Assembly: GCF_050947875.1 (NCBI RefSeq) | Contig: NW_027460346.1 | Location: forward strand, 2,484,000 to 2,547,999 | Direction of reading: 5' to 3' | Source: Dermacentor variabilis | Taxonomy: Eukaryota > Arthropoda > Arachnida > Ixodida > Ixodidae | Length of the DNA: 64,000 bases | Shown: piece after piece, positions 4,563 to 64,000 of the stretch | Position numbering within the stretch: position 1 is the first letter of the stretch | Layout: each line of letters starts with the position of its first letter | Notes under the pieces: generated by a model | Database searches by the model: none | Seen by the model: the letters and a program-made list of their open reading frames with translations, nothing else | Told to the model about the DNA's origin: nothing | Program-made: the position numbers and the translations under genes

Positions 4563-4864
4563 ATAGCAATGAAGTGCTGCGCTGAAAGGGGATGAATTGT
4601 GCTGCCGAACTGAAGGCACTGCTGTCACTGCCATTGCATGAAGCACTCTTTGATGATAGTGACAAAGTTATAATTCCCAAACAGTATGCTACAAGTGGTA
4701 ACTGTACTTTGTTGGGCTTACAGTCCAAAAAAAACTAGAAGTATGAAGTTGGCTGAAAACCATTTCTGTCTTTTTTGTAGTGCCATAAACACATATGAAT
4801 CCAACCTGCTTTTGAGTAAGCTATCGTGTCTACTAATATGTTCACTGCCCTTGTTTCCGTGCAG

Positions 4865-4962
4865 TTCGTTCGAGCCAATCCTACGACTACTGCAGTGTGA
4901 ACACACCCCAGAGGCCCAACACTGGGCTGTCTGGGCCCTGGCCAATCTTACTCAAGTCTACC
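4865..4962 (+). CDS. zer1-like: ZYG11/ZER1-family protein, internal exon
   Basis: The 98-bp exon encodes about 32 residues beginning SFEPILRLLQ and ending WALANLTQVY. This is the armadillo-like repeat near the C terminus of ZYG11B/ZER1 proteins. Those proteins are substrate receptors of CUL2-RING ubiquitin ligases that recognise N-terminal glycine degrons. The acceptor is TTTCCGTGCAG ending at 4864 and the donor is GTGAGT at 4963. The exon starts with the last base of a codon and ends one base into the next, and that phase matches the exon at 7304, giving VYPGKYCPL across the junction. I favour ZER1 over ZYG11 from the QHWAVWALANLT segment, but this rests on recollection of the family. Upstream exons were not found in the window. 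Confidence 0.75.
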
Positions 4963-5102
4963 GTGAGTGTTGCACAAAGTGCAGTTCATTTGAAGTGATC
5001 ACTCGAGCTGTTCTGTCAAAACATAAATGTTTTTTAAAGTGCATATAGCATTCTTGGCATTATCAGAGCAGTTTTCTTTCACAAAGCATGCATAACCCAG
5101 TA

Positions 5103-11910: not shown

Positions 11911-12486
11911 AAATCATATCATGAGAAGCCAACAATCAAGGACACCAAGGACAACATAGGGAAAATGACTTGTACTTTCTAATTGAATTAAAGAAATGAT
12001 AAGTTAATGGCAATGAAAGTGGATGAAAAAACAACTTGCCGCAGGTGGGAAGCGATCCCGCGTCTTCGCATTATGTGTCCGATGCTCTAACCAATTGAGT
12101 TACTGCGGCGCCGTTTCCCCATCTTCGGTATTTATGTGTCACTGCTAGAACTAACCTTGGCAGTGTTAGCCAGCGCTATCACTCGCAAACCTTGACGGCG
12201 GATGTGGAACATCCTTTCTGCCGCAGGCGTCACGAGAACGTGATCTTTCTGGGTGAAGGCAAATGGTCAATAAACCCGCACATGCTACCTGAAAGCATCA
12301 ATGTTGCCGGATTCGAGACCCTCGTTATGTAAGAACGAAAAGAAAGGGGGTGAACGGACGGGCGCAATTTTTATTAATCATATCATGAGAAGCCTCAACA
12401 AACAAAGACACCAAGGAAAACATAGGGGAAATTACGTGTACTTACTAGTTGAATATTAAAGAAATTATAAATTAATGGCAATGTAA
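11911..12486. repeat. 464-bp repeat unit, about 1.2 copies
   Basis: The block CATATCATGAGAAGCC...ACACCAAGGA...TTACTTGTACTT begins at 11915 and again at 12379, a period of 464 bp, with both copies in the same orientation for about 105 bp. Between them are a tRNA-like segment on the reverse strand and an AGGCAAATGGTCAATAAACCC-containing unique part. The layout is that of a tandem array cut down to just over one unit. The array interrupts the LINE between RT and C terminus. Confidence 0.75.
12035..12112 (-). repeat. tRNA-like head of the 464-bp repeat
   Basis: The reverse strand reads GCGCCGCAGTAACTCAATTG, GTTAGAGCATCGG and later GGATCGCTTCCCACC. These resemble the A box and B box of a tRNA. 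The stems are mismatched (a degraded B box, and a T stem that does not close), so I treat it as a tRNA-derived repeat head and not a working tRNA gene. Confidence 0.65.
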
Positions 12487-30590: not shown

Positions 30591-30760
30591 TGTTACGCGA
30601 ACAAAGGATTAAGACTGCATTATTTACAAAGTATATTTACAAAGGGTGACTGCAGCGCTGGCCAGTTCAGCCGACAGCTCAAGAGCCAGAGAGTGTTCAT
30701 CGTCTTTGTCGGGGCGCCCGCGTGCATCGGCCACAAGAAACACTCAACATGCATGTATCA
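30591..30760 (-). mobile_element. 3' LTR of the gypsy element (family B)
   Basis: On the plus strand this is TGTTACGCGAAC...GCATGTATCA, 170 bp. In the element's sense direction it therefore begins TGATACATGC and ends GCGTAACA. The G-rich stretch CCACCGGGGGTAA on the sense strand immediately before the LTR is at the expected polypurine-tract position (30761-30773). Two further copies lie at 44433-44600 and 57461-58048. No matching copy is found beyond the gag end near 35.6 kb. Confidence 0.85.
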
Positions 30761-30996
30761 TTACCCCCGGTGGCAGAAGCACCGTCCCGGGGCGTCTAAA
30801 TATCAGTGATAACAGAAGAGTAATATGGCTTGAGGCGTGCGACATGCACAACCTCAGTAGAATTCAGGGCAGATGAGGCACTGGTACTGACTAGAGCGAT
30901 TTCATAGGTAACTGGAGTCACGGCCCGCAGCACTCGATATGGGCCTGTGTACCGAGACAGGAGTTTTTCTGACAGGCCAACGTGATGAGTCGGGGA

Positions 30997-31842
30997 TCAC
31001 AGGAGTACCAGAGATCCAGACGCAAAGTGGACGTCTCTGTGTTGGCAATCGTACAAGCGGCGTTGCTTGTCTTGGGAGGTCAGGAGGCGAGCGCGGGCAA
31101 TTTCGCTTGCTTGGGCTACCCTGGTGATGGCGTCAAGTGCATACTCGCTGGTCTCTGCTGCGGCGGATAGAAGGGATGCGTCCAGTGGCAGTGTGAGTTC
31201 TCCGCCAAACAGCAGAAAGAATGGGGAATAACCGGCAGTGTCGAGACGCGAAGAATCATATGCAAAAGTGACATAAGGTAGGGCAAGGTCCAAATCAGTA
31301 TGGTTGGACGAGACGTACTTTGCAAGCATGTCTGTTAAGGTGCGATTCAGACACTCAGCGAGACCATCGGTCTGCGGATGGTAAGACGTAGTCAGCTTGT
31401 GCTTGGCGCAGCAAGACTGCAAGATGTCAGCGATGACTTGAGAAAGAAATGTTCGACTACGGTCTGTGAGCAGTTGGTGTGGAGCACCATGCTGCAGAAT
31501 CATGTCGCGTAAAAGAAAATCGCCGACATCTGTGGCACAGCTTGTTGGAAGCGCTCTGGTGATGGCGTAGCGCGTGGCATAATCTGTCACCACAGCGACC
31601 CACTTGTTTCCAGACGTGGACAGCGGGAAAGGGCCAAGTAAGTCCAAGCCTACGCGACAGAACGGCTCCGAAGGAATGACGAGCAGTTGAAGGCACCCGG
31701 CCGGGAGCGTCGATGGTATTTTTCGGCAATGGCATTTTTCGCACTCCGAAATGTACTTCCGGACGGAGCGGGCAAGGCCTGGCCAAAAGAAGCGTCGGTG
31801 GATCCGGTCGTAGGTGCGGGAGACGTCAAGGTGACCTGCCAT
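30997..31842 (-). pseudogene. Gypsy pol: integrase
   Basis: This reverse-strand open frame of 281 codons covers the integrase. The zinc-binding region comes first (GHLDVSRTYDRI, then CEKCHCRK). The catalytic core follows, with the first D in VGLDLLGPFP, the second in LLTDRSRTF and the E in GLAECLNRTL, so the D-D-E set is visible. Integrase inserts the reverse-transcribed copy into the genome. The N-terminal join to the RT-RNase H frame is broken by a frameshift near 31.85 kb. The frame ends early at GSLVLL, so the C-terminal domain is cut. The element is not competent as it stands. Confidence 0.9.
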
Positions 31843-31849
31843 TGGTAAA

Positions 31850-33724
31850 TTGTGAAGTTCTTGGAGAACTGCTCACCGGAGGTGCTTAGGAATGATGAGA
31901 AGTAGGGCAGGACCATCGGGGCGTACATTGTAGTGGTATAATACACCATCCCGGAGAACAAACAGGTGAAGGGACGAATCGGAAAGCGAATATCCAAGCC
32001 ATCAATGATGGCACGCAAAGTGGCTTCACCGCGTTGCTCGTCAGCAATGTGTAGCAGCTGAGAAACAGAGAAAACGCATGCGTTGGTATCGGGGTCAGGG
32101 TCAGCGGGTGGTTCGTCCACTGGATAGCATGATAAACAGTTTGCGTCTTGATGTAATCGGCCCGACTTGTACACTACTGCATAGGAATATTTTTGTAGCT
32201 GCAGAGCCCGGTGACCAAGCCGGCCAGTAGAATCCCTGAGTGAGGAAAGCCAGCAGAGCGCGTGGTGGTCGGCGATTACAGAGAAGTGCATGCCATACAA
32301 GTATGGGTGGAATTTGGAAACCGCCCAGATGAGAGCCAGGCATTCACGATCTGTAATCGAATAGTTGCGCTCCGCTGCTGTGAGGAGGCGGCTAGCGTAT
32401 GCGATAACGCAATCTTGACCCTGTTGGCGCTGGGCTAAGATTGCTTCAATACCGTGACCACTGGCATTGGTATGCCCCTCTCTAGGAGAGGACAGGTCGA
32501 AGTGGTCCAGTATAGGTGGCGTGGTGAGAATGCTGGTGAGGTGGGTAAACGCGGCAGTTTGAGTGGGGCCCCACGTAAACGGCACGTCCTTCTTCAGAAG
32601 ATCAGTAAGGGGTCGGGCAATCACTGCGAAGTCTTTAACGAAGCGTCGGAAGCAGGAGCAGAGTCCTACAAAACTTCGGATGTCTTTGACAGACTGAGGT
32701 ACAGGAAAAGATGTGACAGCATGAATTTTCTCCGGGTCTGGTTGAATACCTGAAGCGTCGACGAGGTGGCCCAGCACTGTAATCTGCTGACGACCGAAGT
32801 GACACTTCAAGGAATTTAGTTGGAGCCCAGCCTCACGGAAGACTTAAAGAATAGCTGATAAGCGCTCAAGGTGCGTCTGAAATGCAGGCTAAAATACGAG
32901 AACGTCATCTAGGTAGCAGAGGCATGTTGACCATTTTAACCCTTGAAGCAATGAGTCCATCATACGTTCGAACGTTGCTGGGGCGTTGCATAGACCGAAT
33001 GGCATAACTTTGAATTGATATAGACCATCAGGAGTGACGGAATGCAGTCTTGGTCTTTTTCACCCACAGAAATCTGCCAATAAGCAGATTGCAGGTCTAT
33101 TGATGAAAAGTTGTTGGCACCGTGGAGACAATCGAGGGCGTCGTCAATGCGAGGCAAGGTAATGCGGTTTAGATTATGATAATCTACGCAGAAACGCCAT
33201 GTGCCATCTTTCTTTTTAACAAGCGCCACGGGCGACGCCCAAGGGCTTGACGAAGGTTCTACAATGCCTTTGGCAAACATCTTGTTCACTTCATGTGGAA
33301 TAACCTTACGTTCAGAAGCAGCAGCTCGATATGGCCGGCGATGAATAGGCCTGGCATCACCAGTATTTATGTGATGCTTAACAATTGAAGTCTGGCCCAA
33401 TTGGTGATTGCTGACGTCGAAGAAGTCGTGGTAGGAAACCAAAAGGCGACACAGAGCTGCTGCTTGTTCAGGCAATAGGTCCGCAGCAATCGTGGGACGA
33501 AATGTTGTGTCATGGCAAATAGCATCCTGTGGACATGGTGAAGAATCGGAGCAGGCGTCTACAGAAAACGTCGGGACGTGGTCATCTCCGATAGTGCGGA
33601 CCGTTGCAACCGACATGCCTTTGGGGAGAACTTCCTTTGTCAGGCCAAAATTAATGACAGGGAGGCACGTCCGGTTATCGGCGACGGTGACGACTGAGTG
33701 GGGCACAGTGATATTGCACATCAA
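31850..33724 (-). pseudogene. Gypsy pol: reverse transcriptase and RNase H
   Basis: Reverse strand. The part at 33724-32960 carries the start of RT (RFCVDYHNLNRIT, then FSSIDLQSAYWQI with the first catalytic aspartate). The catalytic YLDDVLVF box lies near 32890-32915 in another frame. From 32810 the frame continues with QQITVLGHLVDASGIQ, SVKDIRSFVGLCS and the RNase H region (VIAYASRLLTAAERNYS, then DRECLALIWAV). At least two frameshifts separate these parts, so no single polyprotein can be made. Motif order (RT, RNase H, integrase) is that of Ty3/gypsy and not of Copia elements. Confidence 0.9.
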
Positions 33725-33884
33725 AAGGACATCAGGAACAGGTGTGGTGGCGTAATCACCATTGGGAACAGGGAAAGACTATACCAAATCGACGAAAATC
33801 AAGGCTTTAGGCGGCAGGCGGACGAAGGCGGTCGTACTAAAGTTGTTCGGCAGTTTAGCACGAATATGCACGAGTAGAGGAAGT

Positions 33885-35736: not shown

Positions 35737-38700
35737 ATGGCAAAACAACAGAGACATTGTTTTGCTCCTGGATGTACCACTGGATACGTCTCAGCCAGAA
35801 AAAAAGGAAAGAAGGCCTCTCTCTTCGCCGTCCCCGCCGATGATTAACACCGCCAGGCTTGGGAACGTTCCATTCCGCGAGCTGACAAGCCACTGGACAA
35901 GAACTGCGTTGTGTGTGAAGTTCACTTCGACGAGAGGTTTGTAGTTCGCAGCTACACACATGTAATCAACGGTGAAACAGTGGAAATTCCCCGTGATCGC
36001 CCTTCTCTAACACCTGATGCGGTTCCAACTTTGTTCCCCAACGTCCCTGCGTACCTTTCCAAGAAGCTACCATCGAAAAGAAAGACAGCTACTTCGACTG
36101 GATGTGTGCCGCACAAGCGAAAGAAGGTCGACCATTCAGATGAGCATGATGACAGTGTAGTCAGCGACATCCCATCAACTTCGCATTCTGACAGCAGCAG
36201 CGGAGGCTTGGACAGTGTTATAGAAGTAAGCCTCCCAAGTAAGTTCTGGGCAAGGCACCTGATTTCAAGCGCTCCAAAAGTTGTGGCATTTTCTGTGTGT
36301 GCGTCGAGCGGCGAAACAATGTGCTTTCAGAAGTTACTTTTGTGCACTAGTACTGATGTAGATTTCCACTGCACTGCATATGTGCAGGGATCATTGGTGA
36401 AAAGCGTCAATGTTAGCAATGTTATTGATGTGAAGGAGTTGCTGTTTCAGATAGATGCTATGAGTCCTTGTGAAGGGTTAGAAATTCTCAGAATTGATAA
36501 TACAAAAACAAAACACGAAGTTTATGGAGGGAAGCATTACAGCCTCAGATGTTGCAGAATATCCCAAAATGAGACGAGGTGCTTGCAATGCAAGTACCTT
36601 CGGAAGTTGCTGCTGAATCAAGCCTCCTACAAACGCACACGAGGAAGACAGGCTAACTTGTCACGCAAGCTAGTAAGAAAAAATGACCAACTTCGTCGAC
36701 AGGCTGAGCATTGGCAAGCTGAGTGACACGGTCAAAAAAATGAAACGGGGCAATGAAGCTACGTCTACTGCTCATTTTGAAGCAAAGTTGGCAAGCCTGT
36801 CAAGAAAGCAGCAAATGCAAGTCAGAACATGCTTCGAAGCTTCAACTAGGAAAGGCACAAATGGTATGAAGTATGAGCAAGAGTGGATCGTGGAATGCAT
36901 TGTTATGCATATGAAGAGCCCACGACTTTATGACCACATTCGAAAGCACAAAGTAATGGTTGTCCCGAGTCCTTCATGCCTGCAGTCTTACATCTGCAGG
37001 ACAAAAGCGGGTTTGGAATAAATGAAAAGGTGCTCGCGGCAGTAGCTGAGAAGGCAAAGGGCATTGACGTTCGACGCAGACATGGAGGCATCCTTATTGA
37101 CGAGATAAAGCTCTCAGAAAACTTGAGGGTCAACAGAAATGGACTGATCGACGGATTCGTTGACCTCGGCAGCTACACCTCTGGAGAACAAGCAGAGATC
37201 CATTGTGACCATGGGCTGGTGATTTTGTTTCAGCCATTCACCGGCAAATGGCAACAAATTCTCGGGGTTTTCGGCTCGCGAGGTAATGTGAAAGCGGATC
37301 TACTGTCCAGAATAATTGTTGATACTGTGATCTGCTCTGAGAAATCTGGACTCTTTGTTGATTTCGTCACATGCGATGGCGCTTCATGGAATAGAAGCAT
37401 GTGGAAAATTTTTGGCATTAGCGGAAATCTAAAAAATACGGTGTCTAAAGTACAGCACCCAGTGGATACAAGTAGATACCTACATTTCATTTCGGACTTC
37501 CCTCATCTTGTTAAATGTGTGCGTAATTCCATAGCATCGAAAGGGCTCTTGACACCTAATGGAAGAGTGGGCAACGAGTACATGAAGGAAGCTTGGAAGT
37601 TTGACACTGCGAGTACAGTACGGCTGAGAGCAATGCCACATGTAACCATGGCTGTTTGCCAGCCAAATGGATTTGAAAAGATGCGAGTGAACCTGGCGTT
37701 TAGGTTCTTCAGCGACGAGGTATCGAGGGGCCTTTATATATACAAGAATGAAGTGGAGACCCGCTATGGTCCTGGCAGTACAATGGCAACCTCATTGTTT
37801 GTATCTATGATGAGGGACCTAATTGATGCGATGACGTCTAGGTACAGCCGGAAGGGTTTGAGATGAGGCAGTGAACAAGCCAAACACATAAAAAAGTTCT
37901 TGGATTTTCTTGATGTGTGGGAGCAAGCAGTCGGAAAGCAGGGTGGGTTCCTGAGCCAAGGAACAGCTGAAGGCCTCCGTGTAACCCTCTCCAGCACACT
38001 CTCCCTGTTGACTTACGTCACAGAGACATTAGGCTTCAATTATTTGATGACCTCACGTTTGTGCCAGGACGCCCTTGAAAACCTGTTTGGTATATTAAGG
38101 CAAATGTCAGGTTCCAATGACCACCCCACCCCAGCGCAATTCTTGATTTCTGTTAACTGCCCGAGTTTCTATAGCTTGGCCTGGTCACCTACCAGCGGCA
38201 ATACGTCGCAAGGAGTTCTCAGTAGCCTGCTTGACCCACGCCACTGCAAAAATTTGGTCGACATGCAAAGTAAGCTGGATGATCTCCTGGATGTGGGCCA
38301 CCTAAATGAAGTTCACGAGATGGTAAAGGCATGTGATGCGATGCCAGATCATCGTGAAATGGTAGGCTCAAATAGCGACTCTCGCATAACCTACTACGTT
38401 AGTGGGTATGTGGCCAGAAAAATGCTAATGAGAACAAAGTGCGAAGAGTGTTCTCAGCTGTTGCTTCAAGCAAAAGACTCTCACTTGCTTCCGGAAGAGT
38501 CGTGCCTAACCAACCACATGGATAGAGGTGGCCTACTCTACCCATCTCACGCACTAAAAGACTTGGTTGCTGCGATAGAAGATGCCTTCACGCATTGTTT
38601 CAGCTTCAACAAGTTGAAGGCTGACAGCATTATGGACCTGATTTCCTGCCTCTCCATAAATAAGCTGCATATGGTTGGCTGTGCACAACATCACGTAGAA

Positions 38701-38826
38701 TTCACCAACCAAGTGATACGGTTTTTTGTTATCACGAGGTTGCACTTCCTTGTCGCAGGAGAGAACGCTTCGAAGCAAGGGAAACGAGAAAAAATGAAGT
38801 ACCTCAGGCTGAGGTGCACAACATAA
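35737..38826 (+). pseudogene. THAP/P-element-like transposase, broken
   Basis: This is an intronless plus-strand gene of about 1030 codons. An N-terminal THAP zinc finger begins at the ATG at 35737 (CFAPGC, then NCVVCEVHF, then DAVPTLFP), and a leucine/charged region follows near 36650. The P-type transposase core has GILIDEIKLSENL, VTCDGASWNRSMWKIF and HFISDFPHLVKCVRN. The C-terminal block has SRLCQDALENLFGIL. Four lesions are visible: a TAA in the THAP domain at 35845-35847, a frameshift near 36715, a second near 37010 that returns to the first frame, and a TGA at 37864-37866. It is dead as read. It may be a THAP9-like transposase of a P element; no convincing terminal repeats were found. 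It abuts the truncated 5' end of the gypsy element. Confidence 0.85.
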
Positions 38827-38829
38827 CTG

Positions 38830-39737
38830 CAAAGTTTATATCAGTTAGACCAAGACAAAGCATCTGAATATGTATATAGAACAGGAATTGTTCACATCAC
38901 ATTGTATGCCCAGAAATATCTGCATATCTGAACAGAACTTGCCACCTGACAAATTATTATCGTTTGCACTGCACCTTGTTCACCATTTCTGGGTATATAC
39001 CTCCATTATATATTGAATTTGTGCTCCATTTCGTGTCATATTGTTTGTTTGAGAGCTAGCAACCATGTATATACAGTCGACCGTGTGCATTATTTTATTA
39101 ACAATAAATATTCTTTTTCTTTTCTAAGACATTCTTGGCATTTTCCTAGGTGCCACATACGTGGACTTAGTTCTTTGCAGGTTTCAAATATTCGAAACCA
39201 AATTTCCCTTTGCGCTCTCATTATACTCAGTTTTGACCATTGGTGTCTACAGTTCTACCTTTCATTGCAAAATTAAATAAACTTGAAATAATCCTGGTTC
39301 ACTTGAGCGGCCCGGCCCGTTTCAAGTGCCGAGGCGCGCACCATCCAGTAGACGATTAGGACAAGCGCCTATAGCTCATGGCACTAATAAAGTCACACCA
39401 GGCAGAACAGCATACGGTACCCTATAATAGTCCCTTAAAATGAAAATGCTGCACTGGCAAACCGCAAACGACCGCCTACTGCGGAAGCTTTCTCTGTTCG
39501 GTGGAATTATGAGTTTCATAAGTGTTGCACAGAGCGCGAAGCTAAAGCACGGCGATAAAACGACCAAAATTTAGTAGTACGTCAGGCCAGCTACAGTGAT
39601 AAAGTCGCCTAGCCTTTAAAATGATTCTCCGATACGCGTATTGCGCCCCAACAAGCCGCGGAGCGAGAAAACACTTCACAGCGGAACCAAACAACCGCAG
39701 CGGACCTTAGCCAGCGTACGGGACGCATCTCGGAGTA
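38830..39737. other. 3' flank of broken transposase; gypsy-leader-like
   Basis: Poly-A-type signals (AATAAA near 39104 and 39276) follow the broken transposase. GC content rises sharply after about 39300. The last bases before the P element (GCATCTCGGAG) resemble the leader just upstream of gag in the gypsy element (reverse strand, near 35550), so the P element may have landed in another gypsy-like copy. Confidence 0.4.
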
Positions 39738-39745
39738 TCTCGGAG
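39738..39745. repeat. P-element target duplication, left
   Basis: TCTCGGAG immediately precedes the left terminal repeat and is repeated exactly at 44250-44257. Eight base pairs is the duplication length made by P-element transposases. A further TCTCGGAG copy plus TA lies just to the left (39728-39737). Confidence 0.95.
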
Positions 39746-39784
39746 TAGGGTGCCTCGATGCGCGCGCCCCCGCTTAGGGTGAGG
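39746..39784 (+). repeat. P-element left terminal inverted repeat
   Basis: The 39-bp repeat starts TAGGGTGCCTCGATG and ends GCTTAGGGTGAGG. It is the exact reverse complement of 44211-44249. TAGGGTG occurs at both the outer and inner edges, so each repeat carries two direct copies of that heptamer, a possible transposase-binding arrangement. Confidence 0.95.
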
Positions 39785-39927
39785 TCACCCTTTGAACCAG
39801 CCGGCGCCGCCTAAACCTGTTTTCGCGCGCTCCCTCCGCCATTGCGTTGCCCGCGTCGACTTCGCCGCGCTGCTGTGCGGGCGTCCTCGAAACGCTGCTG
39901 CGTTCGCGCGGCTTTCATCGGCGTAGA

Positions 39928-40080
39928 ATGCCTGGATGTTGTGTTCCTCAGTGCTCCAACCATTCGAGAAATGGTTGGAGGATGTTCCATTTTCCAAGGG
40001 ACCCAAAAAGGCGGCTTCTGTGGCTGGTGCGAGTCAAGCGTGACAAGTGGCAACCGACGAACTCCTCGTGTGTCTGCAGC
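39928..40080 (+). CDS. P-element transposase, exon 1 (THAP domain)
   Basis: The ATG at 39928 opens a 51-codon exon reading MPGCCVPQCSNH...FHFPRDPKRR. It is the first half of a C2CH THAP zinc finger, with Cys4/Cys5 and Cys9 as the first ligand pair. The donor GTAAGT at 40081 follows AGC without splitting a codon. The start lies 143 bp inside the left terminal repeat, in GC-rich sequence without an obvious TATA box. The THAP domain would recognise the element's own ends. Confidence 0.9.
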
Positions 40081-40554
40081 GTAAGTGCCACATGTTGGTT
40101 CAGTGCTGTTTTTGTTGCGATTTATTTGTATTTTGTTGCGTTTGGGCAGCTAAGTGTCGTTCAATATTCTTCTTGCTCGGCTTAAAAAAGCTGCGTGAAA
40201 CACTAAAACAAAGTAAATGAGTTTCACTACAGCGCGGTACAGGCCATTGTCTGCCGCTTGCTTGTTCGCATCCGAAATTGCACGACACGTGTCCGCTGGG
40301 GAATACGTACCACGCGTGCTTTCGCCGCTTCTTTTCATTCAAAGGTAATTGCCTTTACTAGGCGCTTGCCAGCGAATTGCGGTCTGGGCCCAAACATTGC
40401 ATCAAGGCACAGAGCATGAGGACAAGCAAGGGCACATAAGCTGTGGCAATTACTGTGCAAATGGATGGTCCAGGAACCAATTTTGATTAATTCACTCACG
40501 ATTTCTGAAGTTGTTTTTGACATGTGTGCGGCGTTGGGTAGCTTCCGCTGCCTA

Positions 40555-40822
40555 TTAACCGGACGCTTCGTCCTACGACGCCGCATTATGTCAGTAAATG
40601 AGATTAACAGAGATCGTTGTTATGTGCAGATTGAGGCGCTCATTCGAGTAATTCGCCTGATATTTCGACTAATTTGTTCTTTGGCCTGTTAACCCGACGC
40701 TTCGTTCTGCGATGGCGGATTAAGTCAGTGAATGAGATAGACAGGATATGTTATGTGCAGATTGAGGCTCTCATTCGAGTAATTCGACTGATATTTGGAC
40801 TACTGTGTTCTCTTGCGTGCTG
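40555..40822 (+). repeat. 134-bp tandem duplication in P-element intron 1
   Basis: TTAACCGGACGCTTCGT at 40555 recurs as TTAACCCGACGCTTCGT at 40689, and the copies run in parallel for about 134 bp each (shared TTATGTGCAGATTGAGG and CTCATTCGAGTAATTCG). They are about 85-90% alike by eye. The duplication lies wholly inside the 807-bp first intron. Confidence 0.8.
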
Positions 40823-40887
40823 CCTTCATTGTTTTCATTATCGAGCCGGAAATGCGCCGCTAATTTCAATATCAAATTCATCTGCAG

Positions 40888-40981
40888 GCTCATTTCGAAG
40901 CCAGCAGCTTCGAACAGAACCGCGCGGATGGGTGGAAGAAGCTCAAGCCTAATGCTGTACCAACGGTGTTCCCATTCAAAG
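40888..40981 (+). CDS. P-element transposase, exon 2 (THAP end)
   Basis: The acceptor TCATCTGCAG ends at 40887. The exon encodes 31 codons, AHFEASSFEQNRADGW...KPNAVPTVFPFK, plus one base. His53 of AHF completes the C2CH set with Cys50 from exon 1. AVPTVF at residues 74-79 is the hallmark end of a THAP domain. The donor GTGAGA starts at 40982. Phase matches both neighbours, so the three exons read as one frame. Confidence 0.9.
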
Positions 40982-41175
40982 GTGAGATGCCTCCTGACCC
41001 TGGTATTTGTTACCACGTTGCTTATCGGCTCATTATCTACATTTGAAAAAGTTATGTGAGGAAACGATTCATGCGCATACATATTAAATTTTCTGGCGCG
41101 CCTTCTATTCTGCTTTTAGTTAACACAATCTTAAATATATGTAATGGGCATTTTTTCTTATTTATCTGTTTCCAG

Positions 41176-43589
41176 AACTTCCTAAAGAGCGAAGGCCACC
41201 AAGGGAACGAAATGCACACGTGCCTGCATTATTCAGTGACGACGCAGCCGCACACAATTCTTCACGAGAAGTGAGAAACGTTCTTCCCTCAACTACGCAG
41301 GAATTTTCTCCCGCTGATTCTTCGTCAGACGGGGAGATAAATGAGAGATTGGCGGCTACGGAAACCAACAATGCTAATGGGCAACTTACTTCGACCCCCA
41401 GGGATGCACGGCTTCAAGAAACTGCAATAGTTACTGCGACCCAACCCCTCGATTCTGAGGCAGCTGAGCTTAGGAAGAAGATTGCAGATCTCACAGCAGC
41501 CAATAATAAGCTTAGACAACATCATAACGAATCTAAGAACACTGTCAAAAAACTACAGATGCAGGTACGCAAGCTGCAGAAAGAGGCAACTAATTTCTCA
41601 CGAAATACGAAGTTTTTAAATGAAGACCAAATTCGTGCTCTTTCTCGGAACAACAATCATGGTAATTCGTGGTCAGCGCAAACAGTAAAGCAAGGTCTAA
41701 AAATTAAATTTGCTTGTGGAACCACCGGGTATGAAACACTCAGAAAGATTGGCTACCCTCTTCCATCCAGCAGAACGTTAGCAAGAAGAATTCAGGGCCT
41801 GAAGTTTCTGCCAGGTATCCTGCATGAAGTGATCGACGTCATGAGGTCGAAAGCAGAGGGAATGGAGGACGTGGAGAAAGACTGCGTTCTCTTTTTAGAT
41901 GAAATGGAGATAGCACCCGGATTTGAACTCGACCGTGGCGAAGACGTGCTTCTGGGAGGAACGACGTTGCCCTCAAAGCCTGAAGAGCCAGCCAATCATG
42001 CTTTGGTGTTTATGCTAGGTGGGGTAAACCAGAGATGGAAGCAAGTGATAGCCTATGAATTCACTGGTAGGCACGTGGACGGCTCTGTACTCAAGGCATA
42101 TGTCCTGGAAATAGTGCAGATATGCAGCCAGATTTCTCTAAGAGTCCGTGTTATCACATGTGACATGGGTGCAGCAAACCGCGCTATGTGGAGAGAATTT
42201 GGCTTTTCGAGCCACCGCCATTCGACAACTTCGTGCTCAATACCTCACCCAACCTTAAAAGGGAAGGAACTTTTTTTCATCTCGGACCCGGCACATGTCC
42301 TTAAGAACCTGAAAGGACAGCTTCTAAGCTCAAAAGTTTTCACACTCAGTGATACTACAGTAAGCAGGAACGGACTGACGGCCTCGAAGGTGAAATTGGA
42401 GCATGTACAGGCCGTCTTGGATTATGACGCAGCCAACGAACTTAAGGTAGCACCAAATTTGTCAGAAACCCACATTAGTTGTGGGCACTTCACCAAAATG
42501 AAAGTAGGAGTCGCTGTCCAGCTCTTCCGTGAAGCCCCACCAGCTATTCGGTTCCTAATAAAAGAAGGAGTGATTGAGCCAGAGGCCGAAACAACAGCGT
42601 GGTTTATGGACCTCGTTTCTAGGTGGTATGCCCTCATGTCATCGCGTCATCCCACCATGGCGCTAAGCCGCAGGAACATTACTAAATATCATGCCGCCTT
42701 GGACACACTACGCACGGCAACAGACACCATCAGAGAACTGAAAATGGGCACTGGATCTCAGTGGAAGCCATCGCAAGCAGGGGTCCTAATTGCGACAACG
42801 GCTGTCCTTCGCCTTCAAGAAGTGCTTCTTGGCAGTGAAGGGTATGAATTCCTCCTCACGAGCAGGCTGTTGCAAGACTGCCTAGAAAACCTTTTTTCTG
42901 TGGTGCGGCTCATGAAGCCAGTGCCCACTGCGTATGACTTGAAGTGTGCACTCCGACTCGTCAGCGTCAGCCACTTTCTTCACACTCCGAGATCAACAAG
43001 CTACGAACTTGACGACCGCGAATACCTTGTCGATCTGCTTGCACATAGCAAGAAGGAATGTGCAGAAAGCGAAGTCGATGAAATCAACGACACGGAAATT
43101 CTGTTCATTGAAGAGCTCACGTCAACCGAGTGCCGCATCTTGTTTTACCTTGGCGGTTTTATTTTGAAAGGAATTTTGAAATCTATAACTTGTCCGCAGT
43201 GCAAGGCTGCTCTCCTTGGCAAGCCTGACGATCAGTATGCTTCCCTGACTGCACTCAAGGAATACGTCAGGGATGGGCAAAACCTCGTATATCCAAGCGC
43301 TGATGTCATGAAAACTTTAAAAAACTACGAGGAACATTTCACCGCTGTCAACTCATGGTGCACAGGCAAATTTTTCACCATGAAGTCGCCACTTCGTTCT
43401 CTGATAGCCTATCTCGAAGGCATAGACAAACCCTCAGTGAACACATGCATGGCTCACAAAGAACGAATAAGCAAAATGCTGACTGCTGCATATGCCAGAG
43501 TGAGGCTCCGAATTCATCTCCGACAAATTCCGAGCACTCATCCTAGTGGCCACGGAAGCAAGACTTGTGCAGGGGTCAGCCTTGCGTAA
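41176..43589 (+). CDS. P-element transposase, exon 3 (catalytic)
   Basis: The acceptor TTTCCAG ends at 41175. The exon supplies residues 83-886, ending in a TAA at 43587-43589. A serine/acid-rich linker comes first, then a leucine-zipper-like coiled coil at about 174-222 (AELRKKIADLTAANNKL onward). The P-type core has candidate metal ligands D324 (VLFLDEMEIAPGF), D412 (TCDMGAANRAMWREF) and E653 (LLQDCLENLFSVVR), with HVLKNLK after FISDPA. A C-terminal IEELTSTECRILFYLGG and CPQCKAALL segment follows. The whole protein of 886 residues compares with about 750-900 for P and THAP9 proteins. Ligand assignments are inferred by motif position. A poly-A signal candidate is AATAAA at about 43787. Confidence 0.92.
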
Positions 43590-44210
43590 GCAAGCTGGAA
43601 TCTGCAGTTCTGCGAGCCTTTTCCTTCAAAGTCTGAAGTCTGCATCTATATATATAGTGATCACAACTATTTTATCAATTACGGTCTATTTAACATAAAT
43701 GTCGACTTTTAAAAAGTGCAATAATGTTCAGTGTTCACGTTCCCATTAAACACAAATCTCTAACTTTGTGTGTTTTCATAAGCACTGAATAAATGATTTC
43801 ATGTTTGCTTGGGTAACAGCTTTTGTATTCATCTGGCTGTTACCAGACGAAAAGGGGACTTTATATTTTATTACCGTTGCTGATGCTGTTTCTTCAAAGC
43901 GTGCAGAACCAAGACGTTGTTGCATTGACCGCGTCGGCTGAATTTTCTTACCGATCAAATTCACTCACTTGCATTGGGACATCAGTGAGGTTTCCCATGC
44001 AATCCTGTTTACCGCGCCTCCGTTCACGAAGAAAAATGCCCATTCAGCCTTTTAACGCCCTCCGCATAACAGCGCGGGAGAAAGGGGGTTAGCCCCAGTC
44101 GCTGCCGAGCGTGAGATAGGGAGCCGGAAAGCGGAGGAGTCCGTTCTCCGCGAGAACAAGCATGCAGTGGGAACGAGAATGGCGGCCGCCGTAGCAGACG
44201 ACGCAGATGT
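43590..44210. other. P-element 3' non-coding region
   Basis: This holds the 3' UTR and subterminal DNA of the P element. AATAAA lies near 43787. From 44040 onward it becomes GC-rich up to the right terminal repeat. No coding feature is supported. Confidence 0.6.
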
Positions 44211-44249
44211 CCTCACCCTAAGCGGGGGCGCGCGCATCGAGGCACCCTA
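44211..44249 (-). repeat. P-element right terminal inverted repeat
   Basis: This is the exact reverse complement of 39746-39784 over all 39 bp, starting CCTCACCCTAAGCGG and ending GAGGCACCCTA. The target duplication TCTCGGAG follows at 44250-44257. Confidence 0.95.
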
Positions 44250-44257
44250 TCTCGGAG

Positions 44258-44360: not shown

Positions 44361-44600
44361 AAGCCATGGCAGGATGGTGCGGCCGCTGCGGAGCTCCGTG
44401 GCAAGGACGGGGAACGGCACCCTCCACCAAAATGTTACGCAAACAAAGTATTAAGACTGCAGACTATTTACAAAGTATATTTACAAAAGGTGACTGCAGC
44501 GGTGGCCAGTTCAGCCGACAGCTCGAGAGCGTTCGTCGTCTTCGTCGGGGCGCCCGCGTGCATCGATCGGCCACAAGAAACACTCAATATGCATGTATCA
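44361..44600 (-). mobile_element. Gypsy 5' LTR (family B) with leader
   Basis: TGTTACGCAAAC...GCATGTATCA at 44433-44600 (168 bp) is a family B LTR in reverse orientation. Its inner side reads on the sense strand GTAACA then TTTTGGTGGAGGGTGCC, the leader or primer-binding position, showing it is a 5' LTR. The leader runs into the oppositely oriented gag fragment at 44258-44360, so this is a rearranged junction or two abutting insertions. Confidence 0.75.
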
Positions 44601-44609
44601 ATAAGCGTC

Positions 44610-61811: not shown

Positions 61812-63150
61812 CGAGGTCTGTTAGAAAAGTAACCGACCTTTGGCCGAAGAAAAAAAAAAACTGGCATAACTGGGGCGTTGGAAACCTAATAACACTCAAA
61901 GTAGTCTCCTTGGGACTCCACACACTTCTCCCAGCGGTGCTGCCATTGTTGGAAGCATTCCGAGAAGGCCTCCTTCGGAATGGAGTTTAGCTCAGCTGTC
62001 GTTGCAGCCATAACGCCCTCTCTTGTCTGAAATCGCGCTCTTTTCATTGACCTCTTGATTTTGGGAAACAGCCAGAAGTCGCAGGGGGCCATATCAGGAG
62101 AGTAAAGCACTGCTGAACTACAGGAGTCTGGTATTTCGCCAAACAAGTCTGGATCATGTGCGAGGAACGTGCAGGCACATTGTCATGATGGATGCGCCAA
62201 TTTCCTGTTGACCACAACTCCGGTCTCTTGCGCCGCACAGCATCACGTAGCCGACGGAGGACATCCCTGTAGTACTCATTGGTGATTGTTTGACCCTGTG
62301 GTGCGTACTCGTGGTGTACCACACCGCGTGAGTCAAAGAAAGCAGTCAGCATCACTTTGACGTTGCTGCGCACTTGGCGGACCTCCTTTGGTTTTGGTGA
62401 CGTGGAATGCTTCCACTGTGATGACTGGGATTTGGTTTCCAGGTCGTACCCGTACGCCCAAGACTCGTCACCAGTGATTATGGTGGTCATGAAGTCGGGG
62501 TCACTGTTTGTGAAATCTAGCATGTCCTGTGAGACTTCAACACGAAGTTGCTTTTCCTCTACCGTGAGCAGCTTCGGCACGAATTTCGCCGCAACTCTCT
62601 TCCTGGCCGAATCTTCAGTCATAATGGAATGTGCAGAAAAAGTGCTGATGCCCACCTCTTCTGCAATTTGTCGGATAGTCGCACGACGGTCCTGCATCAC
62701 CACAGCGTTCACTTCGGCAATGACTTGGTCATCTCGGCATGTTGATGGCCCAGCGGAGCGTGGCTCGCTCTCCACCGACGTGCGGTAGTCTTTAAACCGG
62801 TTGTACTACTCCTTAATCTGTGTGCTGCTCATAGCATCGTCACCGAAAGCCGTCTAAATCTTCCGAATGGTTTACACTTGGCTGTCGCCCAGTTTCTGGC
62901 AAAATTTGATGCAGTAGCGCTGCTCCAGTCGCTCTGCCATCTTCCTTGCAATAAAAAACCGACGAGAACCCTGCGCACTACCTCACTCAAACGCTGCGTC
63001 CCAGCGACTGACGCTATCCGCAGGCGGGAAAAAATTCGCGCATGCGCACGAAGGTTCAAGGTCGGCTGATGCAAGCGCGCTTGTTTCATATCCATCAGGT
63101 GTTCGCAAAAAAAAAAAAAAAAAGATCGGTTACTTTTCTAACAGACCTCG
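61812..63150 (-). mobile_element. Mariner transposon in gypsy integrase
   Basis: The 1339-bp element has inverted ends starting CGAGGTCTGTTAGAAAAG. They are identical over 25 bp and nearly so for 30, with TA on both sides (61810-61811 and 63151-63152). It carries one reverse-strand transposase gene. Length, termini and target site are those of a full-length mariner. The poly-A/T tracts just inside each end (61850-61860 and 63107-63122) have probably expanded. Confidence 0.92.
61886..62940 (-). pseudogene. Mariner transposase, inactivated
   Basis: The start ATG is at 62940 (MAERLEQRYCIKFCQKLG). The catalytic triad is still visible: ITGDESWAYGYD for the first D, RIHHDNVPARSS for the second and SPDMAPCDFWLFPK for the third, as in D,D34D mariners. 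In-frame stops occur near 62871 (after DSQV) and near 62805 (after TQIKE). A frameshift between 62175 and 62100 displaces the third-D block. The coding span is 1055 bp, not a multiple of three. It is therefore a dead gene in an otherwise full-length element. Confidence 0.9.
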
Positions 63151-63480: not shown

Positions 63481-63584
63481 TCACCGCTTCTACCTTGCTT
63501 CTGTGCGATCAGCTGTCGGAAATGCAACTGAGTTTTCACTAACGCACTGTGCTGTTCTAATCATGCTTGATTGAATCGTGTGGA

Positions 63585-63830
63585 TTGAAGAAGTGCGCAG
63601 TAGTTGGCTGCAAAAATAGTGACTGGCATATTAAGGAATGGAATGAATCTGCGTGGCTGAGTTCGTGGACCGCTGGTGCAACTGTCCGTACGTGTTACCG
63701 GCACTTTAAGATGCATGGCTTTCCTCGAGGATACAGAAATTTGCTCATCCACCAACGCTGTATCGCTGACCTTAAAAACAATAGCGTCTGCCCCGGAACG
63801 TCGGCAAGAGTGAGCCCCGCTCCTCAAACA
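63585..63830 (+). pseudogene. THAP-like zinc-finger fragment
   Basis: The plus-strand frame beginning at 63567 reads KKCAVVGCKNSDWHIKEWNE, then LHGFPRGYRN-like MHGFPRGYRNLLIHQR and PGTSARV. The opening C-x4-C and the HGFPRG segment resemble the start of THAP domains found in tick DNA-transposon proteins. The second cysteine-histidine pair is not visible before the frame changes character. It differs from both THAP genes at 35.7 and 39.9 kb. The window ends about 170 bp further on. Confidence 0.45.
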
Positions 63831-64000
63831 ATGACAAAGGAAGTAGCGCCGCTTACTGTCATAGCAAGTTTCGCGCGCGGTATCTACACACATCTTCCCC
63901 GCCTCGCACGGAAAGTTCCGCCCACTATATCGCCAAGGTGTCAAGAATAAGTGAATGGGCGTACACTTGAATATGTGCGCACTATATACGCACAATAAAT

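Follow-up and report, generated by a model that had tools for sequence, protein, structure and literature searches.

The window analysed here, a 64,000-nucleotide stretch of tick DNA, contains a full-length and structurally complete element of the P superfamily, which is probably an autonomous cut-and-paste DNA transposon (Table 1). It is bounded by perfect terminal inverted repeats (TIRs), identical at 39/39 bp, and by an exact 8 bp target-site duplication (TSD), TCTCGGAG, and between them lies an intact three-exon transposase gene in which the catalytic triad can be aligned. All of these features had been claimed in an earlier sequence-only reading of this DNA and were found as described, except that the span given there, 39738..44257, while holding a complete P element, includes the TSDs, the element proper being 39746-44249.

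Table 1. Coordinates, in the window, of the tick P-superfamily element and its parts
Feature	Position	Strand	Remarks
Extra target-sequence copy plus TA (TCTCGGAGTA)	39728..39737	+	Adjoins left TSD
Left TSD, TCTCGGAG	39738..39745	+	8 bp, exact
P-superfamily element	39746..44249	+	4,504 bp; TIRs, TSDs and transposase gene
Left TIR	39746..39784	+	39 bp, starts TAGGGTGCC
Exon 1	39928..40080	+	51 aa, start of THAP domain; agrees with P0001
Intron 1	40081..40887	+	807 bp, GT/AG
Exon 2	40888..40981	+	Remainder of THAP domain
Intron 2	40982..41175	+	194 bp, GT/AG
Exon 3	41176..43589	+	Long helix (coiled coil), helix-turn-helix region, RNase H core carrying the insertion domain, C-terminal portion and stop codon
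Codon of catalytic D324 (Drosophila D230)	41898..41900	+	From alignment; position by hand
GT sites 42019 and 42024	42019..42025	+	Fit departure points of other D. andersoni models (after residues 363-365); inferred by hand
Codon of catalytic D412 (Drosophila D303)	42162..42164	+	From alignment; position by hand
Codon of A568 (Drosophila GTP-binding D444)	42630..42632	+	From alignment; position by hand
Codon of catalytic E653 (Drosophila E531)	42885..42887	+	From alignment; position by hand
Candidate polyadenylation signal AATAAA	43788..43793	+	From sequence; ATTAAA also at 43745
Right TIR	44211..44249	-	39 bp
Right TSD, TCTCGGAG	44250..44257	+	8 bp, exact

Beyond the 39 identical bases of the TIR, position 40 is mismatched and two further positions match, which gives 42 nt arms with one mismatch. 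The motif TAGGGTG is repeated at positions 30-36 of the TIR. A 23 nt TIR probe allowing up to 3 mismatches found nothing in the window but the two ends of the element, where 0 matches are expected by chance, and no derivatives consisting of TIRs alone. Within the outer 550 bp, exact inverted words beyond the TIR reach at most 9 nt, and an imperfect 12 nt pair (40256-40267 / 44154-44165, 92%) may be a chance match. Subterminal inverted repeats are known from the Drosophila and zebrafish elements and were not taken as defining the P superfamily. As a candidate for a paralogous empty site, the joined flanks were matched to 35550-35444 on the minus strand, at 71% over 108 columns, which is too weak to be of use. 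The right flank carries a repeat, 44433-44603, with 87% identity to 30591-30763; shorter stretches of it lie near 57.4 and 57.9 kb.

At the left junction the order is TCTCGGAG-TA-TCTCGGAG-element, which makes a tandem tract at 39728-39745. Exact 10 + 10 nt tandem duplications using more than two letters begin at three positions in the 64 kb, and two of these, 39727 and 39728, are this tract. It is possible that an earlier excision left TA, the terminal dinucleotide, between the target copies and that a new insertion then entered the second copy; a simple local duplication accounts for the tract equally well.

The spliced transposase frame runs for 886 aa to its stop, with intron phases of 0 and 1. 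A transposase search was run on collections totalling 5.8 billion proteins, with scoring confined to the 7,994 candidates that had the most words in common with the query, and gave 52 matches at E≤0.001. The top match, P0001 from Dermacentor andersoni, is identical across all 886 residues and reproduces the three-exon model, although P0001 is itself probably a software prediction and may be this locus or a twin copy. Its 90% cluster has 10 members from 9 contigs. Intron 1 contains a 131 bp unit in two tandem copies (40550-40811, 84% matches).

A THAP zinc finger occupies residues 4-79 of the transposase (PF05485, E 1.2e-17) with its C2CH residues C4, C9, C50, and H53 in place, as had been claimed, and the predicted coiled coil fits a long helix at residues 175-226 of the AlphaFold model. 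The candidate catalytic residues put forward earlier, D324, D412, and E653, align with D230, D303, and E531 of Drosophila. Structure prediction, suggested beforehand for the catalytic core, gave a model that can be aligned to the Drosophila structure 6p5a over 417 residues, from 227 to 685. The Foldseek TM-score is low when normalised to the query, at 0.39, and is 0.74 when normalised to the target. The stretch taken as the insertion domain, between beta5 and alpha4, is mainly helical in the model (454-647). Of the 886 residues, 204 have a predicted local distance difference test score (pLDDT) below 50, and because the mean pLDDT is below 60 in the blocks of residues 1-80, the THAP domain is judged from sequence alone. 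An NCBIfam scan of P0001 gave a sub-threshold match only, and PF22824, precomputed for P0001, was not recovered in the Pfam scan.

That the TIRs match at 39/39 bases, the TSD at 8/8, and the whole reading frame is intact would indicate that the insertion is recent, and makes the element a candidate for recent activity, where the earlier reading spoke of current activity. In such an element the transposase would bind the ends through its THAP domain and helix-turn-helix, a coiled-coil dimer would pair them, and the RNase H core, through D324, D412, and E653, would excise the element and join it to the target with an 8 bp stagger, from which the TSD would arise.

The same perfect ends make it highly improbable that this is a domesticated THAP9-like host gene that has retained old transposon ends, since the gene found here stands between mobile ends with a TSD. 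Such a gene would have company in the ticks, where there are related THAP-bearing gene models, some of them joined to C2H2 zinc fingers (P0106, P0108). The finding, described below, that the N-terminal half is identical at two D. andersoni loci nonetheless fits a mobile element and not a single conserved gene. The THAP-bearing models P0106 (Rhipicephalus microplus), P0108 (Ixodes scapularis), and P0084 (Haemaphysalis longicornis) have, as their best match to the transposase, 65-73% identity over about a quarter of a 382 aa query, and two of the three have what we take to be C2H2-type zinc-finger domains. They are possibly host genes that arose by transposase capture, or artefacts of gene modelling.

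Four other D. andersoni protein clusters start with sequence identical to the transposase, over 365 residues in LOC129385819, 363 in LOC129380871, 364 in P0077, and 244 in P0088. As two separate LOC names are involved, there must be two or more D. andersoni loci, and thus at least one besides this element, and the 9 members of the P0077 cluster suggest that there may be more. The models P0014, P0015, P0077, and P0088 depart, by inspection, near three different GT sites into unrelated tails, none of which is encoded in the window, although that of P0015 has distant similarity (33-36%) to the retrotransposon pieces at 31.3-33.0 kb. Precomputed Pfam assignments place PF03184, presumably a pogo-type DDE domain, in the tail of P0014, and PF00665 and PF00078, which we take to be integrase and reverse transcriptase, in that of P0015. 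An artefact of annotation was considered for these four; with unrelated tails joined near GT sites, they look like gene predictions that were spliced from further copies of the element.

Among the relatives of the transposase, identity over 100% is 69% for R. microplus, 60% for a D. andersoni protein, and 59% for Amblyomma americanum, and it is 51% over 80% for I. scapularis; two others, from Amblyomma aureolatum and Ixodes ricinus, are titled "Putative tick transposon". Scans with the transposase protein confirmed no relatives in prokaryote or viral contigs. In a tree of 41 rows picked from the matches, the long outer branches of which are unsure according to the tool's own warning, one group of 23 rows has support of 100/100, with 12 being ticks by name and 11 placed there by the tree alone. 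Outside this tick group are D. variabilis LOC142592801 and a second P-like gene of the window. Within it, the element belongs to a small group with R. microplus P0002, D. variabilis P0055, and one further row, the branching order of which is unsettled. Two R. sanguineus rows, P0022 and P0053, nest within a part of the tree whose other named rows are from Ixodes, which may reflect paralogy of long standing or a transfer from one tick genus to another.

The composition of this small group bears on whether the element arrived recently in D. andersoni by horizontal transfer, which is unlikely, or descended vertically within the ticks. The D. variabilis relative P0055 (71% over 53% of the query) is hardly closer than that of R. 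microplus (69% over 100%). The two Dermacentor species nevertheless come close to having another subfamily in common (P0070 versus P0055, with 70/84 and 34/37 identities over the two best-matching segments), as might be seen after a recent arrival. Old subfamilies inside the ticks would, however, give the same pattern, the order of the four rows is unsettled, and the absence of a closer D. variabilis protein is judged from clustered protein searches only.

Some observations weigh against the reading of the element as a complete and probably autonomous transposon. The eight residues that bind guanosine triphosphate (GTP) in the Drosophila P transposase have been listed (PMC7776569). Aligned with these, D528, K400, and V401 are kept as D650, K525, and V526, but K385, S409, D444, and N447 are replaced by N510, R534, A568, and S571, and F443 by Y567, a conservative change. 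The transposase has no match at E≤1 to PF21788, the GTP-binding insertion domain, or to PF21789, the C-terminal piece of RNase H, although PF21788 matches all 4 of the relatives scanned, one of them just below the curated cut-off. The evidence for further copies is also qualified, as the other models match at the protein level and are presumably software predictions, possibly from an older annotation, and P0001 and one of the LOC names may denote a single place. Given the altered GTP residues, the transposase might be defective or might work differently.

A copy that moved lately but is now dead or non-autonomous, its transposase inactivated, for example, by the altered GTP pocket, and any movement being supplied by another source, is the less likely alternative, though one to be taken seriously. 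The change of D444 to cysteine abolished both excision and integration in Drosophila (PMC8230255), so that this residue is essential there, and it is alanine here, within a set of four changes among the eight GTP-binding residues plus the conservative one. These changes were followed in an alignment of 46 rows, Drosophila included, with 25 counted as tick group (to the 23 rows of the tree were added P0012 and P0025, which carry tick names) and 20 from outside it. Asp is found at the D444 position in 0/25 tick-group rows; S409 is R in 24/25 and K in 1/25; N447 is S in 24/25 and T in 1/25; and F443 is mostly Y. The change at K385 is not general, this position still being K in 11/25. The D444 and S409 states are therefore those of the whole group and not damage to a single copy, and the aspartate, aspartate, glutamate (DDE) residues are retained in those tick-group rows that reach them. 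In the outside rows D444 is unaligned in 2/20 and is Asp in 7 of the other 18, while S409 is S in 17/19 that have a letter there, so that loss of D444 is wider than the ticks and the change at S409 marks the tick group.

On the evidence of the alignment, an intact and apparently recently spread element with a changed pocket suggests either altered cofactor handling or a defect. In Drosophila the G at the terminus of the transferred strand contacts GTP, and the GTP requirement has been called unique to P transposase (PMC7776569). At the ends of this one tick element the TIR begins TA, which would put an A at the 3' terminus of the transferred strand. It is conceivable, although this is put forward only tentatively, that the ticks hold a living P lineage whose transposase does without Drosophila-style GTP recognition, with the pocket remodelled (R in place of S409, loss of D444, S in place of N447, and mostly Y in place of F443) together with the outermost base pair, and that some other cofactor, or none at all, serves it. 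Since the tick enzyme lacks D444 while its DDE triad is intact, it offers a natural experiment on whether the GTP requirement extends across the superfamily.

The best solved match by both sequence and fold is the P transposase of Drosophila melanogaster (PDB 6p5a, 6pe2). The tick element shares with Drosophila P the 8 bp TSD, TIRs of more than 30 bp, a THAP domain, a long dimerisation helix, and a split RNase H core with an insertion domain and an aligned DDE triad (PMC7776569). It differs in its length of 4.5 kb against 2.9 kb, in its TA ends, in the replacement of K385, S409, D444, and N447 and the change of F443 to Y, and in that no exact counterpart of at least 10 bp to the 11 bp subterminal inverted repeats of Drosophila was found in its outer 550 bp. 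Zebrafish Pdre2, with its transposase zfTHAP9, likewise has an 8 bp TSD, a full-length P-type transposase between TIRs, and a disordered stretch separating the THAP and dimerisation regions, but its TIRs are of 13 bp and start CA, it has 12 bp subterminal repeats, and its GTP-contacting residues are conserved according to its authors (PMC10983969). Human THAP9 is a P-type transposase with a DDE triad, D304, D374, and E613, and unlike the tick enzyme retains the D444 equivalent, D519 (PMC8230255); it is described as lacking TIRs and internally deleted copies (PMC7776569). The closest full-length relative, R. microplus P0002 (LOC142767345), is also without D444, and is known here as a protein only.

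The suggestion that THAP9-like relatives outside the dipterans are mostly immobile thus holds for human THAP9 but not for the zebrafish Pdre elements, which carry TIRs and TSDs and include multiple copies with internal deletions (PMC7776569, PMC10983969). The rarity of P elements outside the dipterans had been overstated, because an automated annotation survey by Petersen et al. reported the superfamily from every arthropod species that it covered, among them I. scapularis (PMC6327564), and relatives are found here in several tick genera. The term "P element" is absent from the main text of two papers on the I. scapularis genome (PMC4748124, PMC10561763) and of one on that of D. variabilis (PMC12341941), and no intact tick P element is described in the titles and abstract openings of the part of the literature covered, Repbase lying outside that scope. 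If active, the element would be a P-type transposon native to a chelicerate, from which gene-transfer tools for ticks might be developed. Few such tools exist for ticks.

The window's other P-like gene is a broken P/THAP9-type transposase at 35848-38826, ending about 0.9 kb to the left of the element on the same strand. It has Pfam matches to the THAP part, RNase H, the insertion domain, and the C-terminal piece of RNase H, with an in-frame stop at 37864-37866; its identity to any tree row is at most 34%, and it retains the aligned catalytic D, D, and E as well as the D444 equivalent. Retrotransposon pol fragments lie at 30997-33778 on the minus strand, with a reverse transcriptase match below the Pfam cut-off and integrase-like and reverse transcriptase-like similarity to the tail of P0015, and a piece of a mariner-type transposase (PF01359) lies at 62047-62805 on the same strand. 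The open reading frame at 63561-63950 (+) resembles a THAP finger by eye (C..C...C..H), with no Pfam match at E≤0.01. A tRNA-like sequence at 12037-12109 (-) scores above the Rfam gathering threshold, is not called by ARAGORN, and could be a tRNA-derived short interspersed nuclear element. The only likely host-gene exon noted, host genes not having been searched for systematically, is ZER1-like, at 4674-5045 (+) (PF22964, E 7.8e-13).

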